Below are positions 1 to 63,983 of a stretch of DNA of 64,000 bases, in pieces. Source of the DNA: Cucumis sativus (lineage: Eukaryota > Streptophyta > Magnoliopsida > Cucurbitales > Cucurbitaceae); contig NC_026657.2 of the NCBI RefSeq assembly GCF_000004075.3, positions 10,850,001 to 10,914,000 of the forward strand. The letters are read 5' to 3'. Position numbers and translations under genes: made by a program. The notes beneath the pieces are model-generated. The model was not told the origin of the DNA. It saw nothing but the letters and a program-made list of their open reading frames with translations, and did no database searches. Numbering within the stretch: the first letter of the stretch is position 1; the number at the start of each line of letters is the position of its first letter.

Positions 1-2677
1 GGAATATGCAACAAATTTTCTGTTGCAACAAGAAATGAAGATGAAAATGAAAGAAAGCAATGCTGACAATGACCAATGGTTGGCTTCTGATTCCTTGAAT
101 GATTCGTCGAGTGACATAGAAATGGCCAGTCTTCTCCTTGGATTATACATTTTTGGGAAGAACCTCATTCAGGTGAAGAAATTTGTTGGAACTAAACAGA
201 TGGGGGATATTCTCTCATTTTATTATGGGAAATTTTACGGATCCGACAAATACCGTAGATGGACAGCATGTCGTAAAGCAAGAGGCAAGAGATGTATATG
301 TGGACAGAAGTTATTTACTGGCTGGAGGCAACAGGAGTTGTCATCTCGCTTGCTTTCCTCATTATCAGAGGAAAAGAAAAATACCGTAGTGGAGGTAGAG
401 TTCAATTTTTACTTCATGCTAGATTATATAACAACCGATCCTCACATTGGCAACCTCATCAATGTAAAAGAGTTCAGAAATTTATAGATTACCCGCAGTG
501 AAACTACCACATGCTTTTGTACATAGTTATTTAGAGTCAGCTGAAGTTGTCCTGCCCACATTTTCCTAAAGAATGCAGAACTAACACCCCGATTTTTCAG
601 CGCAAAGATAGACACATTACATTTCCATGTAGTTTGCTAACTTGAACACTTAGATCCATGTTCCTATCGAAGCAAGACACTATATATTGTTGTTCTTCTT
701 CAGTTTCACTAACATTTTGTATACTCTCAGCCTCAATAACTTATTCACTGTTGTGAAGTATATTGTGCCAATATTTTTTCTTTAACATTTTGACTTATGG
801 TCAAAGAGATTGTTCAGTCGGCGAAGGGCTTTATCTCGATTTTCTATCCTGCATTTATTACCTAATTCCTATCATTAGCGATAGCTGATGCATTTTGTTT
901 CCCTAGATCTCAAGTTTTGATGTATTGACAGGTTTGTAGGGGATTTATTGAGGGTAAAATACTGCTGGAGGAATATGTATTCTCTTTGAAAGCTACAGTT
1001 GGGTTGAATGCCCTTGTAGAGGCCGTTGGAATTGGTAAAGGAAAACAAGATCTTACCAGCACCACCATGGATCCAATTAAGTCTAATCATGCTCATCCTG
1101 CCCGGCCGGAAATACCAGTTGGTAAAGCATGTTCGACACTTACACCTGTTGAAATTGTCAAATTTCTTACTGGAGATTTCAGGTTGAGCAAAGCACGATC
1201 AAGTGATCTCTTTTGGGAAGCTGTTTGGCCTCGTTTGTTAGCAAAAGGGTGGCATTCCGAGCAGGCTAACAATTATGGTAGTACTGTTGGTTTAAAGCAT
1301 GCTTTGGTATTCCTGATCCCTGGTGTGAAAAAATATTGCCGAAGAAAACAAGTTAAGGGAGAACATTACTTTGATTCAGTCAGTGATGTCCTAAATAAGG
1401 TTGCTTCAGACCCTGGGCTTCTTGAACTTGACAATGTTGTAGAAAAACAGTGCAGTGACAAGGAAGAGTGCGAGTTGAGTGGCAAAATAAAACAGGACCA
1501 GGAAGATTTCCCTAGTCAGCAACGTTATTGCTATCTTAAGCCACGAACTCCCGTTCATATTATGGATACAATCAAATTTATGGTTGTTGATACAAGTTTG
1601 GCTGATGGAAGCACATTCAAGATCCGTGAACTACAAAGTTTGCCAGTTGAGATTACAAATAAATATGTTTCCAAAAGTCATTCCGAAGAGGATGAGCAAA
1701 TTTCTTCAGAGATTTCAATGGATGATACTCATTCTGATAATACTATGCATTTTGATAAGGAAGTAAGTGACACTTCCAAAGGCACCAGAATCAGCTTGGA
1801 CAAAAAAGTTTATATTGATGAGGAAACTTGTGTAGGAAATTCTTCAAATAAAGAGTCTTCAAATGATGGCCTAGATGGCCTACATTCTACCAGTATAAGC
1901 ATGGAAGTTCAGGAGGATAAACAATCTTTATTGGACAACACACAACAAAGTGATATTGTTCTGGACCAAATGAGCGAGGGAAAACCCAAATCTGAAATTG
2001 ACTCCACCGATTATACCAAACCAAGTTGGGAATTAAACACTTGCACTGAACAAGTAAGCTGCAATGTAATTAAAATCTTCGCTGATCCTGAACTGAAAGA
2101 GGAGGACAGTTCATCCGATCATTATGATTTAAACCATAATATTCTCCTTCAAGTTGATTCGTCGAAGGAGAATTTGCCTTGGTCTTCTTTATCCAGGAGC
2201 AGTACAATTACTAGTTATGGTGATGTCCTTAATGTTGTTGAAGTTCCACAAAGTAGACATGTACCTCATACTTTTATTGACCTTAATTTGCCTATTCCTC
2301 AAGATTCCGACAGCCATGGAAGCTCCACCACGGAAACAAAAGGACAGAAAAATATACCAAACAAGTGTTCTGAAAGCCTCGACATCTCAGATCGTGACTC
2401 CACCATGATTTCTCGAAGACAAAGTAATCGAAATCGACCTCCAACAACTAGAGCTCTGGAAGCTCATGCTTTAGGACTATTGGATGTAAAACAGAAGCGG
2501 AAGAGTAAGGACGTCTTTCTAGAGGAGAATTGTATTTTGCGACCTTCCCAGCACGCTCATTCAAAGGCGAGACACACGGATAAGTTTGGGAATGGCATTG
2601 TGGATTTCCAACTAGAGGACAGAGAAAGTAATGTCAGCGATGACAATGGTAACATGTTCCATAAGCTGGAAGTTTAA
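1..2677 (+). CDS. ELM2/SANT-type nuclear protein, 3' part (5' end outside window)
   Basis: The coding region is open at the left edge in frame 2. Exons seen are 1-394 and 932-2677, joined in phase 0 over a GT-AG intron (395-931) and ending in TAA; about 712 residues are in view. The first exon holds a SANT-like domain (LLLGLYIFGKNL ... ILSFYYGKFYGSDKYRRW, nt about 128-275). The second exon opens with GKILLEEYVFSLKATVG and then VEAVGIGKGKQDLT, both characteristic of the plant family that includes Arabidopsis At1g09040, At1g09050 and At2g47820. The rest is acidic and Ser-rich. A DLNLP motif (nt 2279-2293) fits an EAR-type repression motif, and a basic KQKRKSK stretch near the C-terminus could be a nuclear signal. 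By family it is probably a chromatin or transcription co-repressor component; the exact role is not known. The apparent ATG-less start at 986 is an internal TTG, not a real start. Confidence 0.88.
395..931 (+). other. Intron of the SANT-type gene
   Basis: The donor is GAG|GTAGAG and the acceptor is TTGACAG|GTTTGT, both in phase 0. Joining them restores the family's conserved EYVFSLKATVGLNALVEA region directly after the SANT block. The intron carries stops in the reading frame and no other coding signal. Confidence 0.8.
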
Positions 2678-6391: not shown

Positions 6392-7465
6392 ATGGAAAGA
6401 TCTATGGAGATCAAGGTCGTATCCGCCAGGGATCTCAACAACGTCAATCTCCTCATGAAAATGGACGTTTACGTCCTCGTCAAACTCCTCGTCACCGACA
6501 TCTCCGGTAAATCCAAGCCTAAATCCGCACAGAAATTCATGACTCCTGTCGATAAGGAAGGCGGAAGTAACCCAATTTGGAATTTCTCCGTTAAATTTTC
6601 TGTTGATGAAGCCGCCGTTAGGGCAAACTGTCTTACCCTCGTTTTTAAACTCCGATGCCAACGGAATCTCGGCGATAGAGATATCGGCGAGGTCTATGTT
6701 CCGGTAAAAGAGCTTCTAGATTCCGCCGGCGAGGGTAAAGGCGATTTGATGCAACATCTTAGCTATCAGGTGAGAAAACCGTCCGGAAGTCCCCAGGGAG
6801 TCCTGAATTTCGCTTTTCGATTTGGGGAAAATTCCAACTCCGGACCGGTTAAACCGGATCAGATTCATTCTCACAACCCGGTTCCCACCTACCCGCCGCT
6901 GGAACCGAGTCCGGTCGCCGTCTCTCACGGTGGGGGTTATCCTCCGCTACCGGAGCCGAGTCTCGTCGCCATCTCTCACGGTGTGGCTTATCCACCGCCA
7001 CCGTCTCTTCCTCCGCAGCCAGAAGTTCATTCTCAGCCTTCGAATTTGTATCCGGTCCTCCCTCCGAAATTGGCGGAACCGGAGATTGTATTTACTGCAT
7101 ACCCGCCGCCGCAGCCGGCGGCTGTATATAGCGTGTACCCTCCCTGTACGTCATACCACTCATACGCGCCGGCCCCGACATACAGCGCGTACGCGCCAGC
7201 ACCGACTCAACAACCAGGGTACGGATACAATCATGTACCGCCGCCACCAACGACAGCGACGTATGGGTACCCACCGCCACCAACCTACGTATATCCGCCG
7301 CCACCGTCGTATTACCCACCTCCGATGCAGAATAAGAAAAGCAACATGGGGTTAGGATTGGGAGCTGGGTTGGTGGGTGGAATGTTGGGAGGGCTTTTGA
7401 TCGGAGATATGGTGTCGGACGCCGCGGACGGTGGATTTGGTGATTCTGGTGGATTTGACTTCTGA
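6392..7465 (+). CDS. SRC2: SRC2-like C2-domain protein
   Basis: This intronless gene encodes 357 residues. An N-terminal C2 domain (about residues 5-143, starting MEIKVVSARDLNNVNLL) is followed by a Pro/Tyr-rich region (about 150-315, with runs such as YPPPPSYYPPP). The C-terminus is a Gly-rich hydrophobic segment (GLGLGAGLVGGMLGGLLIGD) ending in a GFGDSGGFDF tail, the family signature of plant SRC2 proteins. Residues around 170-202 contain an internal duplication (EPSPVAVSHG / EPSLVAISHG). SRC2 proteins are membrane-associated, moving from ER to vacuole, and have been linked to cold response and Ca2+-dependent stimulation of NADPH oxidase; this is family knowledge. The start at 6392 is preferred, with a second in-frame ATG four codons later. 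It is somewhat longer than Arabidopsis SRC2 because of the Pro/Tyr region. Upstream it has a DRE core, a W-box and a TATA box. Confidence 0.94.
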   Translation: MERSMEIKVVSARDLNNVNLLMKMDVYVLVKLLVTDISGKSKPKSAQKFMTPVDKEGGSNPIWNFSVKFSVDEAAVRANCLTLVFKLRCQRNLGDRDIGEVYVPVKELLDSAGEGKGDLMQHLSYQVRKPSGSPQGVLNFAFRFGENSNSGPVKPDQIHSHNPVPTYPPLEPSPVAVSHGGGYPPLPEPSLVAISHGVAYPPPPSLPPQPEVHSQPSNLYPVLPPKLAEPEIVFTAYPPPQPAAVYSVYPPCTSYHSYAPAPTYSAYAPAPTQQPGYGYNHVPPPPTTATYGYPPPPTYVYPPPPSYYPPPMQNKKSNMGLGLGAGLVGGMLGGLLIGDMVSDAADGGFGDSGGFDF

Positions 7466-12074: not shown

Positions 12075-12638
12075 ATGAGGCCTTTAGACGAGCAAGAGAC
12101 CACCGTCGTGTTCGAAAAGCTTCACAAATTCACAGGTAACAACCTCAAGAACATCGTCGAGAATCCCTCTCACGAGGGCACCGAACCAAATCCCGGCCGC
12201 TACTGCTTTCGCCTCCACAAGAACAAGGTCTATTACGTCAGTGACTCCCTCGTCAAGCGAGCTACCAACGTAGCCCGCTCCAACCTCGTCTCTCTCGGAA
12301 CCTGCATCGGAAAGTTCACTCATGGCGGCAGTTTTCATCTCACTGTCCAGTCATTAGGGCTATTGTCCCCCAATGCCAAGCACAAGGTTTGGCTTAAACC
12401 AACCTCCGAGATGTCCTTTCTGTATGGAAACCATGTTTTAAAAGGCGGCTTAGGACGGATTACTGAAAATATTGTTCCCGGTGATGGGGTCGTCGTGTAT
12501 TCTATGTCGGATGTGCCTTTGGGATTTGGAATTGCGGCAAAATCCACGCAGGATTGTAGGAAATTGGACCCAAATGGGATTGTGGTTCTACACCAATCGG
12601 ATATTGGAGAGTATTTGAGGATGGAGGACGAGCTTTAA
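12075..12638 (+). CDS. NIP7: 60S ribosome subunit biogenesis protein NIP7
   Basis: A single exon encodes 187 residues, close to the roughly 180 usual in eukaryotes. It starts [19 protein letters not shown], the canonical NIP7 N-terminus, followed by the N-terminal alpha/beta domain. A PUA RNA-binding domain covers about residues 95-175, with [21 protein letters not shown] and a [13 protein letters not shown] core. NIP7 works in the nucleolus on pre-rRNA processing and 60S assembly. The start is fixed by the family N-terminus. A telo-box just upstream matches its ribosome role. The 3' flank contains CCAGGTATAC (12688-12697), so an intron in the 3' UTR is possible but not shown. Confidence 0.96.
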
Positions 12639-26350: not shown

Positions 26351-28573
26351 TTATATATACATATCCCCCAGGCCCATCGGCCATACACTTGCATGCATGC
26401 ACATTATATTATTTGGATGACCTACATTTTTGTTACGATCCATATCATCTCCCCATTTTGAATTTTGAGTTTCTTTCTGCCTTTCAGTAAATAGAGTGTA
26501 CCTGCTTACTAAGATTGTCAAAATTTTCTTTTCTTTTCAATTTTACGTGTACAGTATAGATCGACTCATTAGATACTTTTGAAAGTTACAACCAACTAAT
26601 TAAACTTGCAATTTAACTAAATCATCGTGTGTAAAAAGTAGAGTATCGAACAAATCAATTGTTGTATCGTGGATTGATAGTCACTATCTTGAAAATAAAC
26701 TACAACAATAATATGATCTCAATGCTAGATTGTTTAGTTATAGTAGGTTGAGTCTCTTCCATGGTTAATTAACACAATATCTTTCTCTCACATGACGCAC
26801 TAGTTGGGAAAAAATCAAATGAAAGTAAAAAACTTTGCTTAAATCGAAGAATTAGATCAATAATTTAAAGTTGTTTCGTTTTAGATCTAAAAAATTTAAT
26901 ACTTAAGCAAGGAGACAAAATTAAAAGTTTAATTCCATTGTTATGCACACTTTATCTATAATATGAGTTCAAATTTGATCACATTTTAGTTTCTATATGG
27001 TTTATTTCACTTTATTTACTAATTTATAACCCTATCAAGTTGATGACTTGATAAGTGACTATGTTTCTTTTTCACCAGCTCTTTTGACTTTAACCTTTAA
27101 TCTTTTTAGTGATTTTGTTGAGCATGGTACCTTCGCCCTAATCAACTTTGTTGGTACACAAAACAAACACCCATGGTTCTGTAAACGTTTAGCTTTACAA
27201 ATTATGTGAACAATTTTTTAATACAAGCACCAACGACAACGTGATATTGAAAATACAATCAAAGTTTTACATTAGTTAGATAAAATACAAGAATATAAAT
27301 TAAAGCAACCATCTCTATTGACATTAGATTCTTTAGAAGACAAAGCCACATGAGAATTATATTCTCAACGTGAACAATACATCATATTTCAAGATATTTA
27401 AAAAGGTGTTGTCCCTTGCTAACACATATATATGAGGAAAGGTTGTACGCAATGGGCAAAACTCGAGTCATTTTCAACAAAATACACAATAGCTTTTTGA
27501 GGCAAGGGATTATCCAATACTATTAGTATAACCAATTTTTGTTACATGTAAATACTATTTAAAAGTTTTCAAATTAACTATAATTATCACTATTTCAAAA
27601 TCTTTCCTTTGCTACAATATTCACTATTTAATATAGTATAAATATTTATTATCTTCAACAAATTAAAATAGTTAATCCATCAAATACTACGATAATGTTA
27701 ATAATAAAAAAAGAAAAATTGGTAATAAAATTGAAAATACAATAATTAACATTGAATAACTCCAAGCCGATTACGAAGGAAAACACTTTTTTTTCAAAAC
27801 ATTCATAACAATAAATTTTGAGAGTCTCAAATTAAAGAATTTTGAAAAGGGAATATACTTCAATTTTAAAACATTGAGAGAAAAGGAACAACAACATATA
27901 GGGGTGAAAATAATGTTTCAAAACTAAATACATTTTCATCAATCTAATTATTAATATCCAACAAATAGTTTGCTTTGTTGAAATATTCAAGTTGGTTATT
28001 CACCCTCCAATTTTATCAACTTAATTAATTGATGTTTAATTATCTATTAAATATATGATTATTATTGTTGTTGTTTTATCTTAAATTTGCTAATGAACTC
28101 TATCAAATTCAAGACTAAAATTGGAAAAATTTTAAAATATCATTGGACTCGTTTGTTCAATTTTAAAATTTAAGAAATTCTTTCTTTTCTCTTTATTAAT
28201 TTAATTTCTTTCCTTCACTAACTATTTTGTTTGTATATTGAAATTGCATAGTATTTTTTATTTTTTGGATCTAATTTGGGTATGATAGTTAGATTTTAAA
28301 ATTTTATATGACTAAGCAATTAATTAATTTAAAATAATTATATATGAAGTGAAATATAAAAAATAGTTAGTAAAGGAAATAAAAAGAAGAGTAGAAGAAG
28401 GTCGTCTTTTTCCGCACAGTTTCAGCCACGAGGAAGAGAGTGAGCAAAGTGGTGAGTGAAGCGTGGCGTTGGGTTTTGTTTTCGTTCAAATTTCAAATCT
28501 TCCACAAACTCTGTCCCCATCTTCTCTTATTTTTCTTCCTTTTTTTCTCTTTCCTCTAATCTTTTGAATTTTG

Positions 28574-28597
28574 ATTTCGATTTCGATTTCGATTTCA
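28574..28597 (+). repeat. Hexanucleotide repeat in the probable 5' UTR
   Basis: GATTTC is repeated four times, about 80-100 nt before the start codon of the coiled-coil gene and within its likely leader. Confidence 0.8.
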
Positions 28598-28675
28598 TCC
28601 ATCCCCATCCCAACCCTAATTCCCAATTCTTCACATTCTGATATTCCCCATTTCTATTTTTCGATCCCTGCTTCT

Positions 28676-30591
28676 ATGGCCGACTCCGACTCTTCCACTC
28701 CTTCCCCTGCTCCTCTATCAGCAGTGAGTTCTCTTCATTTTCTTCCTTTTCACTCTTTGATTATCCCCCATTTTTTTTTTCCACATACCCATCTTCTTCT
28801 TCTTTCAATTGCTTACTCAACCCCTTGCTTTTTCTATCTGACATTCTTATTTCTTCTGTTCACAGAAAAAGGAGAATCTAACCCCCATTGGCTCCAAAAT
28901 TACGGTATATATATTCTTTTTCTTTTTTTGGACTCTATTACTTTTATTTGTGAATTTTGCCTTGTGATGTTGAGATTATGAAGTTTAATTGTAAGATATT
29001 TGAGAACTAAATTGTACATTGTTTGAAGTTGGGATTTTGAGAATATGAATTATATGTGTTTGGGACTTTTCAGATTGTGCAGCTAAAGAGTGTTATGAAT
29101 GTAAATAAGAGATTTTTGAGTTTTCGGGTCCTGCTGATGTAGTATTAATAATTAACATGGTTTCCTAAAATGTGGGAAGTCCTGAGTTCAAATTTCTTTA
29201 GTGTCATTTCCTATTCGTTTCTTGTAATTGGATACTTGTAGGGTTATCTACTAATTTTCGAACTAGAGATGGGAAGGAAGGAGTGTTAAGAACATATAGA
29301 AAAAGTATATACATTAGCTTATTAGCTAAGTCTTTTGGGTGTGGGGTGTGATTTCAAAGTCTAACTGCCATTTAACTTTGATCTTCTGAGATTTTCCACG
29401 TTTGTTCTCAGGAATTGAACGAATCAAGATCAGAGCTGCTTAATAGAATTCAATCTCTTAAGCAGGTGAAATTTAGATTTACAGTGAGCCTGATTAAGCC
29501 CTTGCTCATTTTTAGTTGTTTCTGTTCTCTGATTTTGTAAACGTTCCCTGTGTTTGAGCATTATTTCAGGATCTCCAGAATTGGAGGTCAAAGCTAGACA
29601 CGCAAGTTCATACCTACCGCAGTGTAAGTTAATAGTAGTGAATTTTGTCTTGGCTTTTATTCTATTTGTTCATGCTTTTTTATGTATTCACATATTTCTT
29701 AAATGTAACTCCACGGTCCACCAGCCAGCTTGCCATGTTCTAAGATATTTGTGTTTGAGTTTCCTACAATGGGTCAACATGATCCATAATCAAGTTGGTT
29801 ATCCTAGAAGCCTACTGTAATCAGATCTTGTGGCTCATACAGACAGCCGGTTACTGTAGGGTAGACGTGATGTTGGTTAACTGATTCTTGGTAGTTCAAA
29901 CTTCAAAGAGATCTCAACTCAAGTCTGCTAATGTTTTCGTCGTGTAGGATATTTAATCCCTCAATACCTTGGTTTACAAGAAAATGTACGCATAGGCTAT
30001 TCATCATAATGAAATTTTCCCGTTTGTTGGTCATATCCATCGGTATCCCCCCTATTTCAATTTTATCTGTGTTCCTGCAGCATTTGATACGTATCTTCAA
30101 TGCTTCATGCAGGAACTCTCTGAACTCAAGAAATCACTTAATGTTGAAGTAGAGCACCTTCGCACGGTAAGGAGCAATGCTTCACATATTGAATATGCCT
30201 TTAAACTTTTTTATGCCATTTGGAAGGGCAATAAATTTGTAACATGAAACCAGGAATTCCAAGAACTAAGGACTACGCTTCAGCAGCAACAAGAAGATGT
30301 GACTACTAGCTTGAGGAACTTGGGTGTAAGTTCTATTTCTAACAAGTACTGACTTTCAGACTAAAATATACAAATGAATTTCGTCAAAACACCACCAACC
30401 CATACTGTCTCACCATATTCGTGACCAATATATTGAAGAAAGTTATGAAATGCTAGCAGCTTCAGGATGTTTCTGTGGACAATAATGAGACACAACATCA
30501 ACATCCAGTAGGAAGCCCCGACAAGGAAGATGCAGACGAGGCTAAGAAGGATAACTTAACAGAGGAGAAAGGTAATGAAGCTGAGAATTAA
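28676..30591 (+). CDS. Small coiled-coil protein of unknown function (7 exons)
   Basis: Exons are 28676-28723, 28866-28904, 29412-29465, 29570-29623, 30113-30166, 30254-30325 and 30460-30591. All six introns are GT-AG and phase 0. The product is 150 residues. The N-terminus is Ser/Pro-rich (MADSDSSTPSPAPLSA), then KKENLTPIGSKIT, then a long coiled coil (about residues 30-105), then an acidic, Glu/Lys-rich tail. Exons 3, 4 and 5 are each exactly 54 nt, encoding 18 residues; exon 6 is 72 nt. Their products align with each other: acidic at position 1, Leu/Phe at 2, Arg/Lys at 6, Leu at 9. Leucine-type residues are spaced 3-4-4-3-4, a heptad plus a hendecad. I recognise this as resembling an uncharacterised conserved plant protein but cannot name it. 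No enzyme motif or membrane segment is seen. Exon joins were placed by eye; every join keeps the frame open. Confidence 0.82.
29135..29200 (+). mobile_element. Weak SINE-like piece in intron 2
   Basis: Within intron 2 of the coiled-coil gene, GTAGTATTAATAATTAAC resembles a degraded box A and CCTGAGTTCAAATTTC (29181-29196) a box B. It lies in the opposite orientation to candidates A to C. The box A match is poor. Confidence 0.3.
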
Positions 30592-33500
30592 GTGGCAGTT
30601 TTAGCATGGTACGTTTCTAAGCTTTTCATTGCATGGTAAGAGAATCTTAGCAGTTCTCTCTAGGCGATGGATTTCCACATTTTTCTATTTTGCATCATGC
30701 TCTATTTAAATTTCAATCTTTGTAACGATAGGGTTCTTTCAATATTTCCCATTGAGGTGTTCTATGATATCTCCACCCTTTAGAGCTGATCTATCTCTTT
30801 GGCTATGTCTCTTTCTCTAAATAACTATGGAGTTTATGTTGGACAAACTTTCAGTACTTCATAGCATTGGTTCATTGAAGAACGACGTGTTTCTTGGTTC
30901 TATATTTCTCTCAGTTATAAAGAATTGTGGGGCAGAGTAGTTATTCTTCTTGCAAAGGCTTGGTTTTGGTAACTATTTGGTTCGTGATTTTGATTTTTTG
31001 AAAATTGTATTTGCCTTCTTGTAATTTCTTTTGCGGTTTAACAAAACATAGTAACTTATGGATGGAAGAAGTGATTATAAGTTTAATTTCTAAAAGACAA
31101 ACAGTAACCAAACCAAACACCATTCAAATACGTATATTAGCATATTGATGTAAACTCGAAGATCAATACTTTGGTATCAAAATTAGGCTTTTGTTCCTTG
31201 AAATTTTTAGCTTAACTAATTAAATTAGTATGATAGTTCTAGTTGACGTATGTTTGTTAAACTATGTCTTAAGTTTTCTTTTTTGTTATTTTGATGTATG
31301 TATTTTCAAATTTTTCAATATTTTTACATTTTTACAAGCGTTGGCATAATTTAACGAACTTTTTTGTAAAATAAGAACTCTTTAATACAAGTTTATGGTT
31401 ATATTTAAGATTTTTTATTTTATTTTTGTGAAAATCACATTTTAAGAAAATTAGTGAGTAAAGTCATGCTAAAATTTCAATAAAGAAAAAAAAGAGATAG
31501 AAGTTTGAAGGGATGAAATGCATAGTTTAAGTATAAGAATCAAAATGAAAATGATTTTAAATCAATCAAAATTATATAAACGAAATTAGAATTAAGTTAT
31601 TTTATTTTTTACTACCAATTAGAAATAAATTTCAAAGCTTCACGAAGCAATTAAATATTAAATTCAAATTTCAACCACAAAAATCATATACCCAAATGAA
31701 GCTACATACAAAAAACTGAGTTTAATAAATCTCCTAAATAAAGCTAATAACACTATAGCTTTTATTTTTTCATTCAAATCTTAATAATGGAGCATCTACC
31801 AAAGCAACCATAATTGAACTTGCATATAACATAGAACACATTGGTTGGTGATTAAGAGGCCTACATTTACAATCCAAAACTATACATATAGACTAAAAAT
31901 ATTACTAGATGTGTAAGAAGAAAAATACTTACGTTTGTTTAGGTTTATACATTTGATCAAATCATCCAACGAATGAAACGAGATCATTCAAATATGGGTC
32001 GTGTAAGAAAGATAAAGATGGTCAAATAATTGAATTTTGTACAATAATGTACGATTTGATTTGATTTATATTTATTTATTTTGGGAAAATATAGATTTGG
32101 AAAGGTTTTCTTGACATCAATGAAGCTTTAAATTTGAAATGTACTTTTAACTTCACACGCACATCAACATTATTCATTTTATTTTCCCAACGATATGAAT
32201 TTACATTTTCCGAAGCAGAGTTGGTGGGATCACTTTAATTTTCTCACAATTATTAAAATATCAATTATTATTTTCTCAACCAACAAATTTGGTCACTTAA
32301 AACTACTCCTATTTATTTCCCTTTATTACCTCTTATTAAATATTAATCCCAAAATTTAAAATAAAAAGGAAAAAAAATCTCAAAAGTTTAAAATATGGAA
32401 TAACTAGTAATTAACTTAATCAAAATTTCCACCACTTAAAAAACATACAGAGGTGGGATAATCTAAAAACTGCTTCTAACATGGTGTTGGTTTTGTTGAG
32501 TTATACTTGGATTAGATTGTGTTTGGCTGTCTAGTTTCACACACCTAACCAAACCCATATATGGTATGTGGAGATTGTTTGCTTTACCAAAGCTTGGGAC
32601 TAGCTACAAAGATGAAGTAATGTAAACCCAAACTATAGAAAATTAGAGTTATTAAGTCCATCTCTGAAGCTATATAACCAAATACAAGCTAACATAAAAG
32701 ACTTTTGAAACCTATTTTCACCTCAAAAATTCAAACAATAGGGTCATACATTTAAACTACCAAGTTCTGTAAAACTAAACTATACACAAAAGAATAAGAT
32801 ATAAGATAATGAGAGAGCAGCTAGGAGTTTAATGACAAACAAGACTTGGAAGTGCTACAAAACAGAGGAAAGGGTAAAGGGGCTGTTTGCTGTTTTCATT
32901 TATACATTGTTAATTGTGTTGTCCTTTTTACCTTCATAACTTCTGGCTGTCAATCAAAATTATATATGTTGCGTGGGAAAATGGGAGTGTTCTCTCTTTT
33001 CACTTATTTGCAAATATATAAATTCACTTACAACTGTAGGGCTGTCTGTATCAAGTTGTCATCTTAACTATGTTTGCCTTTACTCAGAGATCATCAGATG
33101 CCCCTTGGCCATGGCCGCACGTCTACCTAAAGGAAATGTGGCCTTTTTTTTCTTTTTGTTTACAGACAGAATACAACATTGGTTTTAACCAGCTCATGCA
33201 TTATGTGGTTCATTCAATGCATGAGAGAGAGAGGCCAACAAATTTATTTTTGACTCGCTATTTATTAGCGATACTAGGACTCCTACCTACTTCGTGAGAA
33301 TTCATCTAATAAATTCTCCTTAGTATACTCACAAGTTTTTCAACCTTCTTCAATAGATTGGGAGAGTGTTTAGTCCGCTGACTTCATAAGTCGGTTTTAA
33401 GTAACTTCATCAAATTCATTAGTGTTCACTATTGAAGTTTGTACATTTATTGAAAAACTTTAGCTAAACTTTGATTTTCTAACTTTAACATATTAACTAC

Positions 33501-34610: not shown

Positions 34611-35777
34611 ATGGCTGTGGTATGTTCTGAAGCAGCACCCTCACAACCACTCAGAGCACAGGTAAATAAATGCCTACTCTTTCTTACCAAGTTTTGAACT
34701 TTTTCTTTTTCTTTTTCATCTCCTCAGGCATTCCCCCGTTCATCCCCTTCTTTTCTTTGCAGGTTTGGGTCTTGAAAGTTTCTATTCACTGTGAAGGGTG
34801 CAAGAGGAAGGTTAAAAAGGTTCTACAGAGCATTGATGGTACCATTCCAAATTGTACACTTTTACTGTTTTTGGTTTCAAATGTGAGAAAATTAACAACT
34901 GATAGTTCCAATTTTTTTCCTTCCATGTTAGTTCTTTTACCAGTGAAGTATAGGATTTGGGAACTTTTACAAGTTGCCCTTAGTCTAAAGCTTTGGAAGT
35001 GATAACCTTCTTAATCTTGTAGGCGTTTATACGACCATTATTGACTCAGACCAACAGAAAGTTACAGTCACTGGAAATGTTAGTCTTGAGACTCTGACCA
35101 AGAGGTTGGGAAAGGCAGGTAAACATGCGGAAATATGGCCAGAAAAGCAAGCGGGAAAAGAGAAACAGAGCATCAAGATGTTGGAGACTAACAAAGGGAA
35201 AGACCAAGAAAATGTAAGAAGTCCAGGTACTAATAAAGCTTCAGCAAAGAAGGTTGAGTTTAAGGTCAGCCCTGTCAAGAAAAACCATGAAGAACAGAAT
35301 AACAAGTCAAAGAATATTGGAAGCTCTCCCAAGAAACCTCCGGCCAGGGAGGCCACGCCGGCTTCCGGCTCCAAGGGCAGTACTACTGGACAAGAGGGTT
35401 GTTCTCCAGACAAAAGTAGTGAAAAGAGGAAAATGAAGGGGCATCCAGGTAATAACATTAGTGATAAATCAAGTTCAATCCCCCAAAATGGACATGGGCT
35501 ATTCAATGAGGATCTAGAAGTGGGCCTAAAAAATGGTAACCCAATGACACACCAAATATACACAGGCCCAAAGGGTTATATTTTCCCTCCACCTATTTTG
35601 GGGTTAAATTACAATGCGCCTCATTTAGGTAAAGGTCCTGAATTTTTTTACCATGTCCCACCGATTCCATATTCATATTCAAATGATCCGACAGACAACT
35701 ATGAGGATCAAGCAAAGCCACAGACGTACCTGGATTATTTCAGTGAAGAGAATGCCCATGGATGCTTCATCATGTGA
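34611..35777 (+). CDS. Heavy-metal-associated isoprenylated plant protein (HIPP)
   Basis: Three exons, 34611-34661, 34763-34838 and 35023-35777, encode 293 residues. Introns are GT-AG; the second splits a Gly codon. An HMA domain (about residues 18-85) begins VWVLKVSIHCEGCKRKVKKV, and Cys27 and Cys30 form the CxxC metal site. A long Lys/Ser/Glu-rich linker follows, then a Pro/Tyr-containing region. The protein ends in Cys-Phe-Ile-Met, a CaaX box expected to be prenylated and to anchor it at a membrane. HIPPs bind metals such as Cu, Zn or Cd and act as metallochaperones or stress factors. The intron positions and the LQSIDGVY junction match the HIPP group with one HMA domain and a long tail. 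Start MAVVCSEAAPSQPL is the only ATG in frame before the HMA exon. The gene is convergent with the PP2C gene. Confidence 0.93.
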
Positions 35778-37053: not shown

Positions 37054-40000
37054 TTACATGCTAGTTGATGCCCTTGTGGTGCGCTGATTTGTTCCAAGGA
37101 TGATTATTATAACAGTTACATCATCATGATATTTCCTTCTCCTGCCGGCTGGAATGGTAATTAACTCTTCCTTGCTAAAACCTATAAAACATAAGTTCTT
37201 TCATCATCAGCTCCGATTGATTCAAACAGATATGAAAATTTCAAGTTATAGGCACAAGATTAGTCTACTTCTGAGGAAAATACTAAAACACCTCGTTGTC
37301 TTAAACAAGTAGTTATTATTTATTTATTTTTAATCCTTTTTATGAAGTAGCTGATGCGAAGAAAATAAAACACTAGGAGGGTGTTTGAGTCCCCAACTTC
37401 AAGTGGAGTGAGCTATTATACACACGTTAACTTCAAGTGAGTTATTATACACACGTCAAGTTTTACTATTTTAAATCATTTTTTGTTACAGTGCATACTA
37501 TTTCCTACTTAGACTAAAGTAGCTTACACTTCAAACTCGGACTAGTATAACCCAGATACTCTAATAAACAACCCAACACTCCAAACACCTCCTAAGATGT
37601 GTGGGTTTCAATAACTACACAATCTATTAGAAAACTCATGTTAAAAATTAAATAAAATTGACAGGTGAAATAACATGAGTACAATTTCTCCAGCCGGCCA
37701 AACAGCAGAATCAAAGGGCAGTGTTTTCACTGAACTTGTACTCAATGTCAGTATCCTTAAATAATGGCTACTGATTAGTATTTTACAATATTAAAGAACA
37801 CCTCTTCAAAAGATTATCCTAAGTGAGAACGGATAAGAGGATACAATATAGAACCGGCAAGGGTACTCTAATTCTAACCCCAATTTGTTCCAACAGTATT
37901 AGCCTTTTGGTCGGGAATTAAATGATAGCAATTGTCTCTTTTTCTTGTACGTTTACTTTGCCATTAGATTCTAAGGTTTGTAATGTTTTATCTTGTCGCA
38001 AGGAATTGACAATTCACCTTTTATTGAAAACTTGAAGGGAATGCTTAGTTTTAGACACATAAGAAACTTTTAGCATAAGAAAATGAGCAATAAAACAAAA
38101 TGAAAAGTTGACTTCTGCTAACTGCTAAAAACATCATAAATAACTAAGTTCAACACTCTAGCCCGGAGTCAACATATGACATTAAATGTAAGCTTTAAAG
38201 TCGTCTTACTCTTTTCAGTCATGCATTCGTGATAATATCATGCCAAAGATAAGTTAATAAATATTTCACACAAAACGATTTAGATTTCACCTGCACAATT
38301 AGCTGCTTTCAACAGAAGCTGCTCCAGTAAAAATTTTGCAGGATCACCAGTTGGGTTGCTCAAGATATACGAATGGACAAGGTTCACTGCCTCCTCATTG
38401 CCAAAAAAGTCAAATAAACCATCACTTCCAACTATAACAAAGCAATCTGATTTTGATATCCTATGGATAGACAATGCTGGTTGAGTGGAAATATAGGGAG
38501 GGCTTATTAGGTTACGAACTCGAAGAATACCCATCAAAGCATCATTAAATTTTTTCTGCAGAGAAAATAAATGCATAATAATCAAACTTATGATGGACTA
38601 AAATAATTTCCAGAATGCAGATGACGTTACCTGGTTCACTCAGAAATGAATACCATTTTTAGCATTGATACCACATCAACTTTGTCCTGAAAATTCATGT
38701 CCTATATATAATAAAAGTGATCATGCATATTGATTTTTCTGTCCTGAGCTGATATGGATTTTACCAAGGTCAGGTGAGGTCCGAAGTAACAGGAGAAGAA
38801 AAGATAGAATCCTTACAAGTACGGGATGGGGTGGTGGATTCAAATACAGAACGTACATACATGGTTAAGACATAGCTATAGTAAAATATCACGTAGGTAT
38901 TATCAATTAGCATGAAGACTTAGTCAGCAACCAAAAATTCTATTTTGTTTAGCAACTTGCATCCTTTTTCTTCTTTCTTTTCTTTTTTTTTTAATAGGAA
39001 CAACCTGCATCATTATTAGCATTTTAAAACAGTGCCTCTACTCTATTTATTAAATTTCTATACACTGCACAAACAGAGAAATGATATTGTGTTATATGAG
39101 AATATGGCCATACTGGCAGGCACGCAATCAATAACTGTCGCGTACCGTCTTCAAGTAGCCAACTCCAAAAGCACGAGTCACCTTCAGTTTTCCTTTGACT
39201 TTGCCACCAACGATTATTGTCGGATCATCGGGATGATCATGTTGTAACTGAGCTCTTTCAAGTTCATTATCCACAGTGTGACTCTCAGTGAGCTGGACAG
39301 CTTTCAGACCCCTATTCCTTCTCATAGAACCTTCATCAAGGGTAGCTAGTACTGCTCTACTATCACCCAAATTTAGCGTGTACAAATCCTTTCCATGAAG
39401 AAGAACAACTAAAACACATGACCCAACAGAAACTAAATCAGGGCGGTCCTCCATTTCCTGTTCTACCATGTGCAGAAAATCATTCTCTGTTTGACTAAGA
39501 GCACGCTGGAGGCTATCGAACACCCCATGCCTTAGAGGGTAGTTTTTCATTCCTGCTTTGGCATATGAATGGTTCTCTAACACATTGTGGATATCTGAAG
39601 AAATTTTACTATTGTTTCCCATAGGAGAAAATCTTCCTTGAGTAATGTTACTATCATCAAGAAGATGTGAACCATGCATGTCTAAACCGTCAGAGGTTTC
39701 ATTCTTGGCTTCCCAATCTAGTAGATTAAAATAAAATACAATAGTTTCATACAATGTGCCAGCAAGAAAATCAGCAGCATCTCTTCCGTTAAAACCATCA
39801 TAAATTGCACAAAATAGCCATCCATTTTCTTCAGAACAAACAGCTTGGACCCTGTCCTCACCAGCAGCTCCACCTGCCACTTGCACTTCCTTAACATTAA
39901 GGAAACCTTCACCTCCAGATGGAGAACTCATGGATTTCAACAAGTATGAATCATAATCAGAGGTCGGGGTAGATGGACTGCAACTTAAGTTTGACAGACT

Positions 40001-40318
40001 ACTCTGCAGAGACGTTGACAGTATATCCAACCTTGAAAGAGTAGGCGATGAGGGAACCTTACGGAAGGAGTTAGGAGAATCCCAGGTTGGCAGAATTTCT
40101 TCTCCTATCAACCCATTGCATATATTTGTGTTCGCTAGGGTGGCATTCGCACTCAAGGCAGCCCCAGATAAGCAAGAGAAACTGCTCACCCTTTGAAGTC
40201 CAGACTGAATCTCCAACTTGTCAGAAACATCATGAATTTCACCTATGTTGCCATTGCATTTATAACCGAAGCTAACTTCAAGTTCTCCCTCGGGTTTTGT
40301 TGAAGCTTCTTGAAGCAT
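37054..40318 (-). CDS. Protein phosphatase 2C (PP2C40-like)
   Basis: Exons in reading order are 40318-39146, 38555-38291 and 37181-37054, giving 521 residues. The introns are phase 0 and phase 1. The N-terminal quarter carries conserved plant motifs (SSFSCLSGAALSANATLANTN). The catalytic domain has GAAGEDRVQAV, the metal-binding YDGFNGRDAADF, LNLGDSRAVL, SDGLFDFF and YHDDVTV, so the usual Asp residues of the two-metal Ser/Thr phosphatase site are all present. Sequence and length match Arabidopsis PP2C40 (At3g16560, 493 residues, by memory), a relative of the POLTERGEIST group. The substrate is unknown. AACAG just upstream of the ATG (40325-40329) looks like an acceptor, and CT-rich leader sequence (minus strand) lies at 41.65-41.95 kb, so a 5' UTR intron of over 1 kb is likely. 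The second intron carries a MITE-like insertion. Confidence 0.93.
37376..37592. mobile_element. MITE-like element in PP2C intron 2
   Basis: The left end GGAGGGTGTTTGAGT (37376) is the imperfect inverse of the right end ACTCCAAACACCTCC (37578-37592). The interior is non-coding and AT-rich. TA flanks both ends, as for a Tc1/mariner-like insertion, but a two-base duplication proves little. The interior has a partial tandem repeat of about 33 nt, AACTTCAAGTG ... TTATACACACGT, at 37395-37458. Confidence 0.5.
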
Positions 40319-50294: not shown

Positions 50295-50813
50295 ATGCCT
50301 TCTTCCAATCCTCCGTTCAAATCCCGACCAGAATCCAAATACACCAAGGCCAAGAGAGCTCTCCGTTCTCTCGCCGTCTCCGTCGCCATTCCTGTTTCCC
50401 TCACAATCGCCGCCATCTTCCTCTTTGGCCGCTCCTCTCGCCATTACCCCAACCGTAACCGCCCGATTTGGATAGGCCCACTCTGGCTCATCCAGCTTTC
50501 CTCCATTGGCTCCTCCTTTCTGGTTGGCCTCGCAGCTTGGCTCGTTTGGGCGGACGGTGGTTTCCATGGCGGTTCCAATGCTCTTCCGCTCTACATCGCG
50601 CACCTTTCTCTCAGCGTCGTTTGGAATCCTCTGGTGCTTGTGATTCGGTCTGTGGTGATTGCGTTTTTGTTCTGTGTTTTGGATTGTGTGACCCTGTTTG
50701 CGTGTTATCTGGCGTTCAAGCGAGTTAATCCTTTCGCTAAGGATCTGATGAAGCCTTGTTTGGCTTGGACTGCGTATCTCTCTGCTGTTACGTATGTGTT
50801 CATTGATCTTTGA
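50295..50813 (+). CDS. TSPO: Translocator protein homologue (TSPO)
   Basis: An intronless gene of 172 residues. After a basic N-terminal tail (PPFKSRPESKYTKAKRALRS), five membrane segments are visible at about residues 25-45, 59-85, 97-116, 119-141 and 154-172, the TSPO/MBR fold. HLSLSVVWNPLVL and the C-terminal CLAWTAYLSAVTYVF match the conserved fourth-helix and fifth-helix motifs. Plant TSPO is a stress- and ABA-induced protein of the secretory pathway that binds porphyrin or heme and is removed by autophagy; this is knowledge from Arabidopsis TSPO. The protein here is a little shorter than the 196 residues known there, mainly at the N-terminus, so a further upstream start was considered; no in-frame ATG was seen upstream. 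A CT-rich leader precedes the ATG. Confidence 0.94.
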   Translation: MPSSNPPFKSRPESKYTKAKRALRSLAVSVAIPVSLTIAAIFLFGRSSRHYPNRNRPIWIGPLWLIQLSSIGSSFLVGLAAWLVWADGGFHGGSNALPLYIAHLSLSVVWNPLVLVIRSVVIAFLFCVLDCVTLFACYLAFKRVNPFAKDLMKPCLAWTAYLSAVTYVFIDL

Positions 50814-54467: not shown

Positions 54468-55838
54468 ATGATTGAGCGCATTCTCGGACCCACCCGCTTC
54501 CGCCGCATCCAGCGTGCCTTCCGCCACAGCGCTGTCACCGTTCTATGTCTCTTCTTAACCGTCGTTGTCCTCCGTGGCACTGTCGGCGCTGGTAAGTTCG
54601 GTACTCCCGAGCAGGACTTCAACGAGATCCGTTCCCATTTCTCCTCTCGTGGCCGCCGAGTCGAGCCTCGCCGTGTTCTTGAAGAGGCTCAGCCGGAGAC
54701 TACCAACAAGCCGGCGGAGCAGTCCAATAATTATGCTACATTCGATATTTCGAAGATTTTGGTGGATGAAGGTGAGGATGAGAAGCCCGATCCGAATAAA
54801 CCCTTTAGTCTTGGCCCTAAAATTTCTGATTGGGATCAACAGCGAGGTGAATGGTTGAAGAACAACCCTGATTTTCCTAATTTCATTCGACCTAATAAGC
54901 CTAGAGTTCTTTTGGTTACTGGATCCTCCCCAAAGCCTTGTGAGAATCCTGTCGGTGATCATTACCTTTTGAAATCGATTAAGAACAAGATCGATTACTG
55001 TAGGCTTCATGGGATTGAGATTTTTTACAATTTCGCGCTTCTTGATGCTGAAATGGCGGGTTTCTGGGCTAAGCTTCCATTGATTAGGAAGCTCTTGTTG
55101 TCACATCCGGAGATTGAGTTCTTATGGTGGATGGATAGTGATGCTATGTTCACTGATATGGCTTTTGAGGTTCCATGGGAAAGGTATAAGGATCATAACT
55201 TTGTGATGCACGGATGGAATGAAATGGTCTATGATCAGAAGAATTGGATTGGGTTGAATACTGGAAGTTTTCTTCTAAGGAATTGCCAATGGTCACTCGA
55301 CATTCTCGATGCTTGGGCGCCGATGGGGCCAAAAGGGAAGGTTAGAGAGGAAGCTGGGAAGATCTTGACCAGAGAACTGAAGGACAGGCCCGTTTTCGAA
55401 GCTGATGATCAGTCAGCCATGGTGTATTTATTGGCAACACAAAGGGATCAATGGGGGGAGAAAGTATACCTTGAGAATGCCTACTATTTACACGGATATT
55501 GGGGCATTTTGGTTGATCGTTACGAGGAGATGATTGAGAATCACCATCCAGGTCTCGGTGATCATCGGTGGCCTCTCGTCACCCATTTCGTCGGGTGTAA
55601 ACCATGCGGGAAATTTGGAGATTACCCAGTTGAAAGATGCTTGAAACAAATGGACAGAGCATTCAACTTCGGGGATAATCAAATTCTTCAAATCTATGGC
55701 TTTACACACAAGTCATTGGGTAGCAGGAGAGTGAAGCGAGTTCGAAACGATACGAGTAATCCATTGGAGGTGAAGGATGAACTTGGGTTGCTTCATCCAG
55801 CATTCAAAGCTATAAAGGTATCATCAACAACTTCTTGA
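54468..55838 (+). CDS. XXT2: Xyloglucan 6-xylosyltransferase (GT34)
   Basis: An intronless gene of 456 residues, about the length of Arabidopsis XXT1/XXT2. The N-terminus MIERILGPTRFRRIQRAF is the family start. One membrane anchor lies at about residues 21-39 (type II, Golgi). The stem is acidic, and the catalytic domain starts near KPRVLLVTGSSPKPCENP. The metal-binding DxD motif is DSD at 223-225 in WWMDSDAMFTD. The C-terminal part has THFVGCKPCGKFGDYP. The enzyme moves xylose from UDP-xylose onto the glucan backbone of xyloglucan in the Golgi. I assign the XXT1/XXT2 type from the N-terminus and length; which of the two it corresponds to is not certain. The gene is convergent with the Ile-tRNA ligase gene. 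Confidence 0.95.
   Translation: MIERILGPTRFRRIQRAFRHSAVTVLCLFLTVVVLRGTVGAGKFGTPEQDFNEIRSHFSSRGRRVEPRRVLEEAQPETTNKPAEQSNNYATFDISKILVDEGEDEKPDPNKPFSLGPKISDWDQQRGEWLKNNPDFPNFIRPNKPRVLLVTGSSPKPCENPVGDHYLLKSIKNKIDYCRLHGIEIFYNFALLDAEMAGFWAKLPLIRKLLLSHPEIEFLWWMDSDAMFTDMAFEVPWERYKDHNFVMHGWNEMVYDQKNWIGLNTGSFLLRNCQWSLDILDAWAPMGPKGKVREEAGKILTRELKDRPVFEADDQSAMVYLLATQRDQWGEKVYLENAYYLHGYWGILVDRYEEMIENHHPGLGDHRWPLVTHFVGCKPCGKFGDYPVERCLKQMDRAFNFGDNQILQIYGFTHKSLGSRRVKRVRNDTSNPLEVKDELGLLHPAFKAIKVSSTTS

Positions 55839-57471: not shown

Positions 57472-63983
<6,512 letters not shown>

Follow-up and report, generated by a model that had tools for sequence, protein, structure and literature searches.

The analysed window, a 64,000-nucleotide stretch of the cucumber (Cucumis sativus) genome that begins at 10,850,001 of its contig 3, contains a predicted gene of seven exons that would encode a protein of 150 residues (Table 1). 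The exons were joined across the region 27500-32500 by splice consensus and frame, and their borders are based on splice consensus, reading frame and the repeat itself. The six introns, of 142, 507, 104, 489, 87 and 134 nt, all have GT-AG borders; as a sequence-only reading of this DNA had claimed, every one lies in phase 0. That reading had also described three exons of exactly 54 nt (exons 3, 4 and 5) and four aligning exon units starting at 29412, 29570, 30113 and 30254 and ending at 30325, and its coordinates are exact. Reading through the introns brings in-frame stops in five of the six; the first has none, and its length is no multiple of three. Exon 7 has two candidate acceptor AGs in the same frame (30454-30465), the unused one 6 nt further downstream, and the choice between them would add or drop Leu-Gln.

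Table 1. Exons of the cucumber gene, with positions counted from the first letter of the window
Feature	Position	Strand	Length and content	Borders and phase
Exon 1	28676..28723	+	48 nt, MADSDSSTPSPAPLSA, start rich in Ser/Pro	ATG, GT donor, phase 0
Exon 2	28866..28904	+	39 nt, KKENLTPIGSKIT, KEN and TP within	AG/GT borders, phase 0
Exon 3 (unit 1)	29412..29465	+	54 nt, ELNESRSELLNRIQSLKQ	
Exon 4 (unit 2)	29570..29623	+	54 nt, DLQNWRSKLDTQVHTYRS	
Exon 5 (unit 3)	30113..30166	+	54 nt, ELSELKKSLNVEVEHLRT	
Exon 6	30254..30325	+	72 nt: unit 4 EFQELRTTLQQQQEDVTT, then SLRNLG, 6 residues that keep the pattern	
Exon 7	30460..30591	+	132 nt including TAA, acidic tail	

Outside the units, exon 2 encodes KEN followed by TP, which we take to resemble a KEN-box degron; the chance expectation for KEN in the shuffled protein is 0.096, and the degron reading may serve as a lead only. 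With its 39 nt (28866-28904), the same exon falls inside the 51-nt upper limit for microexons that some papers use (PMC8831610). The tail past residue 105 has 13 D+E vs 4 K+R, and the part encoded by exon 7 is probably disordered.

Upstream, a scan of 28100-28676 found AACCCTA at 28612 and TATA words at 28339 and 28355; E2F, MSA and site II words were not found in this interval. Eight neighbouring open frames were compared with Pfam, and six gave matches above cutoff, namely 12075-12638 (+) with NIP7/UPF0113, 39128-40318 (-) with PP2C, 50295-50813 (+) with TspO/MBR, 54468-55838 (+) with glycosyltransferase 34, 6392-7465 (+) with C2 and 986-2677 (+) with DUF7650. Frame 35106-35777 had no Pfam match. 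Frame 61812-62276 (-) had a sub-cutoff match to class I tRNA synthetases (19.4 bits, cutoff 22.7), and may be an exon from a gene of that kind.

The protein itself appears to belong to no recognised family. Among the best 25 of its 87 Pfam matches (E up to 10), which include YwqH-like, DUF4795, Apolipoprotein and DUF1664, none passes the curated cutoff. A sequence search of the PDB returned no convincing relative, the best matches being ferritin (E 0.0043) and the outer capsid protein sigma-1 (E 0.032); none of the pattern matches obtained from prokaryote genomes (84) or viral contigs (21) was confirmed as a relative, and Rfam gave no match across 27500-32500. When the protein was searched against its own genome (226,625,048 bases, 88 contigs), seven matches were obtained, five of them exons of this gene and two at other places (E 2.14 and 8.58). 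This is weak evidence for a single-copy gene, because the self-match of exon 3 reached only E 0.22, with exons 1 and 2 missed altogether. Peptide strings were not found in the literature searched, and the gene is not named in the titles and abstract starts listed for papers on 54-bp exons, coiled coils, plant exon duplication, and intron positions and heptads.

Four units of 18 residues

The units begin at residues 30, 48, 66 and 84. In agreement with the earlier reading, all four have an acidic residue at position 1 (E, D, E, E in units 1-4), Leu or Phe at position 2 (L, L, L, F), Arg or Lys at position 6 (R, R, K, R) and Leu at position 9, and in most of them positions 13 (I, V, V, Q) and 16 (L, Y, L, V) are hydrophobic. 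Their alignment, checked by shuffling, has a four-unit sum-of-pairs BLOSUM62 score of 116, with 27 of 108 pairs identical; the score was matched by none of 20000 within-unit shuffles (mean -46) and by two of 5832 rotations, the true one counted. It was attained by 28 of 20000 shuffles that preserved the hydrophobic/polar pattern, and the observed likeness by 4018 of 20000 that preserved hydrophobic, acidic, basic and polar classes. When the residues of the core and those of the surface were each shuffled among themselves along the full helix, that likeness was reached in 92 of 20000 cases; for the surface alone the figure was 73 of 20000. The surface repeats too, by charge, but with class held constant, exact residues add no further likeness.

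A comparison of residues 30-107 with themselves at 43 lags gave the same period. Lag 18 had the highest mean BLOSUM62 (1.15; 15/60 identical), a value attained by none of 3000 shuffles, and lag 36 was the runner-up (0.98; 11/42 identical). Lags 43, 29, 25, 11 and 7 were also high, and these are near-multiples of the helical turn, so that part of the repeat signal is plain helix periodicity. Among surface residues only, lag 29 (1.09) was as good as lag 18 (1.05); the charge pattern is therefore partly a plain helix property. Cutting the protein into 18-mers from other starts gave scores of 96-116 (starts 21-30), 95-113 (starts 31-36), and 61 and 62 (starts 39 and 40). Since the maximum of 116 is common to starts 29 and 30 and near values occur elsewhere, total likeness alone does not pick out the exon borders.

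These results bear on the possibility that the exon lengths are coincidental and the repeat is ordinary helix periodicity only, which would fit both the success of 4018 of 20000 class-preserving shuffles and the high values at lags 29, 25, 11 and 7. We consider it very improbable, given that the successive exons measure 54, 54, 54 and then 72 nt (54 + 18), all in phase 0, and that the exon start falls at one repeat position in 4/4 units. Across both strands of the window there are 131 open AG-[54 nt]-GT stretches (62 + 69), and the top three by unit pattern are exons 3, 4 and 5, a partly circular test in that the pattern was derived from those exons.

A regular core that is not heptad-based

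The spacing of hydrophobic residues had been read as 3-4-4-3-4, a heptad plus a hendecad, and the analysis bears this out. That register places hydrophobic residues at 19 of 21 core positions, a count that no shuffle among 3000 attained, vs 11/22 in the best heptad register (attained by 111/3000 shuffles) and 12/21 in the best hendecad register (20/3000). This core takes in all but two of the helix's 21 hydrophobic residues, and the two breaks in it are S at position 5 of unit 1 and Q at position 13 of unit 4. Hydrophobic power has its maximum at 3.58 residues per turn (17.41), and the peak at 3.58-3.60 was attained in none of 3000 shuffles. At 3.60 (18/5) the power is 16.89, compared with 7.29 at 7/2 and 7.79 at 11/3; 25/7 fits slightly better than 18/5 (17.16 vs 16.89). 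A regular non-heptad core of heptad plus hendecad, that is, 18/5, is thus supported. This periodicity has been described, and PMC4786415 places it between heptad (3.5) and hendecad (3.67) and near the 3.63 of a straight helix; 14 + 4 = 18 is a known way of spreading a stutter (PMC9369452).

On a helical wheel with a step of 100 degrees, the core residues fall on a single line. Next to this line stand R, R, K, R and K, R, R, T on one side; on the opposite side come R, Q, E, Q, with E, D, E, E, S further out. The hydrophobic stripe holds 19 of the 21 residues within ~60 degrees of one line and 16 within ~40 degrees. An alternative is that the helix is amphipathic and, in place of forming a coiled coil, rests on the surface of a membrane or lipid in the manner of apolipoprotein helices. 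An 18-residue period corresponds to exactly 3.6 residues per turn, and there are weak matches to the Pfam apolipoprotein family (20.3 bits vs a cutoff of 90) and, in the PDB, to apolipoprotein A-I (E 6 to 6.7). However, the narrowness of the stripe, a hydrophobic fraction of only 0.28 and flanks charged as in helix pairing all speak against this, and matches to as many as 87 Pfam families at E up to 10 are typical of helical repeats, so we regard a lipid-bound helix as very unlikely.

The charged residues form columns whose spacing had not been pointed out before. Positions 1 and 6 carry opposite charges in 4/4 units, acidic at the former and basic at the latter. When two helices run parallel and in register in a coiled coil, residue i of one lies opposite residue i'+5 of the other, as g and e', and the two columns have this spacing, like that of a g-e' ion pair. 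A full acidic column with a full basic one five places on arose in none of 40000 surface shuffles, and both full columns anywhere in 23. Positions 6 and 17 are basic at 7/8 places. Both charge tests were picked once the columns had been seen. Positions 12 and 17 fall off the rule, forming an opposite-charge pair in one unit of four and a like-charge pair in another. Given the g-e' spacing of positions 1 and 6, the signature common to the units may reflect the needs of the helix and not a trace of copying.

Origin of the equal exons

The sequence-only reading had further proposed that the protein grew by exon duplication. One 18-residue unit per exon, phase-0 borders and an 18/5 core stand, and growth by duplication is less secure, because hydrophobic and charge classes can explain the likeness of the units and make physical sense for a coiled coil. 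No residual likeness is seen among the flanking introns, which, once a trivial overlap of neighbouring flanks is set aside, have just 10-base matches (E 0.37) in common.

In the DNA itself, pairwise comparison of the four exons over their first 54 nt gives 138 identical bases of 324; 0/5000 codon shuffles attain this identity, which mostly follows from the protein. When synonymous codons were permuted over the gene, identity at all bases was attained in 187/10000 cases and identity at third bases (38/108) in 63/10000 (51/8000 in a repeat run). With edge codons excluded, the two identities were attained in 132 and 176 of 8000 synonymous permutations, and with permutation restricted to the helix, third-base identity was attained in 158/10000. 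Plotted by lag, third-base identity was 0.28 for lag 18, 0.33 for lag 36 and highest, at 0.35, for lag 41. The third-base identity hints at shared descent, and we give it little weight because there is no peak at lag 18.

Alternatively, a helix that was already periodic could have received its introns singly, at proto-splice-like sites that would return with each acidic codon at position 1, leaving the equal exon lengths as a by-product of the 18-residue period. All four units start with GAA or GAT, with G as the preceding base in three, and both the explanation of unit likeness by residue class and the absence of likeness between introns of different units are in keeping with such insertion. 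Yet four insertions at one helical position would be required, and the rarity of success when core and surface are shuffled separately places the units somewhat above a bare amphipathic helix. We regard single insertions as somewhat unlikely.

Duplication is favoured because there are three equal exons and a fourth of 54 + 18 nt in a common phase, and because the exons start at an equal repeat position. Equal exon lengths and intron placement make a real argument for it, and the alternative account is not fully convincing; growth by exon duplication is thus plausible. To our knowledge, runs of equal-length exons like this are rare in plant genomes.

We propose that residues 30-105 form a single long, nearly straight helix of 18/5 periodicity, as the sequence pattern suggests, and that this helix would pack beside another copy or a partner in a parallel, in-register coiled coil. 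Each unit would contribute five positions of the core, together with an acidic-1/basic-6 pair set like a g-e' salt bridge, and every phase-0 exon would add five helical turns with the register undisturbed. The equal exons would most likely have arisen when a phase-0 exon of 54 nt was duplicated in tandem. Head (Ser/Pro-rich) and tail (acidic) are both probably flexible, and may carry binding or regulatory motifs. Judged from the helix, head and tail, the likeliest role would be that of a small oligomerising adaptor or a scaffold subunit. Taken as a whole, this account, from the 18/5 helix and the parallel in-register coiled coil to the small adaptor and the tandemly copied exon, seems to us evenly poised between right and wrong.

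The feature is real, neat and correctly read, the earlier interpretation of it is supported in part, and it belongs to a protein of an ordinary kind in which exon and helical period coincide cleanly. Should the 54-nt exons prove common to distant plants, the gene would offer a compact and testable example of protein lengthening by exon copying, in which the exon is a full structural period of five turns, and structural studies would gain a regular, naturally occurring 18/5 coiled coil. Otherwise it is an ordinary small coiled-coil protein.

Comparison with known systems

Collagen is a triple helix with a Gly-X-Y repeat and is unrelated to the cucumber coiled-coil protein. Fibrillar collagen genes contain many 54-bp exons, the length of exons 3-5 here, and a title cited in PMC5395295 interprets these as amplification of a 54-bp exon. 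By analogy, and only tentatively, the cucumber gene might parallel, among plant coiled coils, the 54-bp exon array of collagen: an old phase-0 exon for exactly five turns, with core and one g-e' ion pair, would have been copied in tandem, allowing the helix to lengthen by whole registers.

Coiled coils of the 18/5 type likewise have 18 residues over five turns. In PMC4786415, a stutter is spread over two heptads, giving 7+7+4 = 18 across 5 turns. That paper describes a heptad coiled coil with a delocalised insertion, whereas here the period is repeated over four units and matches the exon borders.

Among plant proteins, the K domain of MIKC-type MADS proteins is a coiled-coil domain lengthened through exon duplication (PMC10178880). 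It differs from the cucumber protein, for which no MADS or K-box model occurs among the best 25 of 87 Pfam matches. By description, the likeness is to plant LSU proteins, which a review (PMC12699172) presents as short coiled-coil proteins of ~100 residues and unclear function; at 150 residues the cucumber protein is longer. In the same review, short plant and animal coiled-coil proteins are described as facilitators (PMC12699172).
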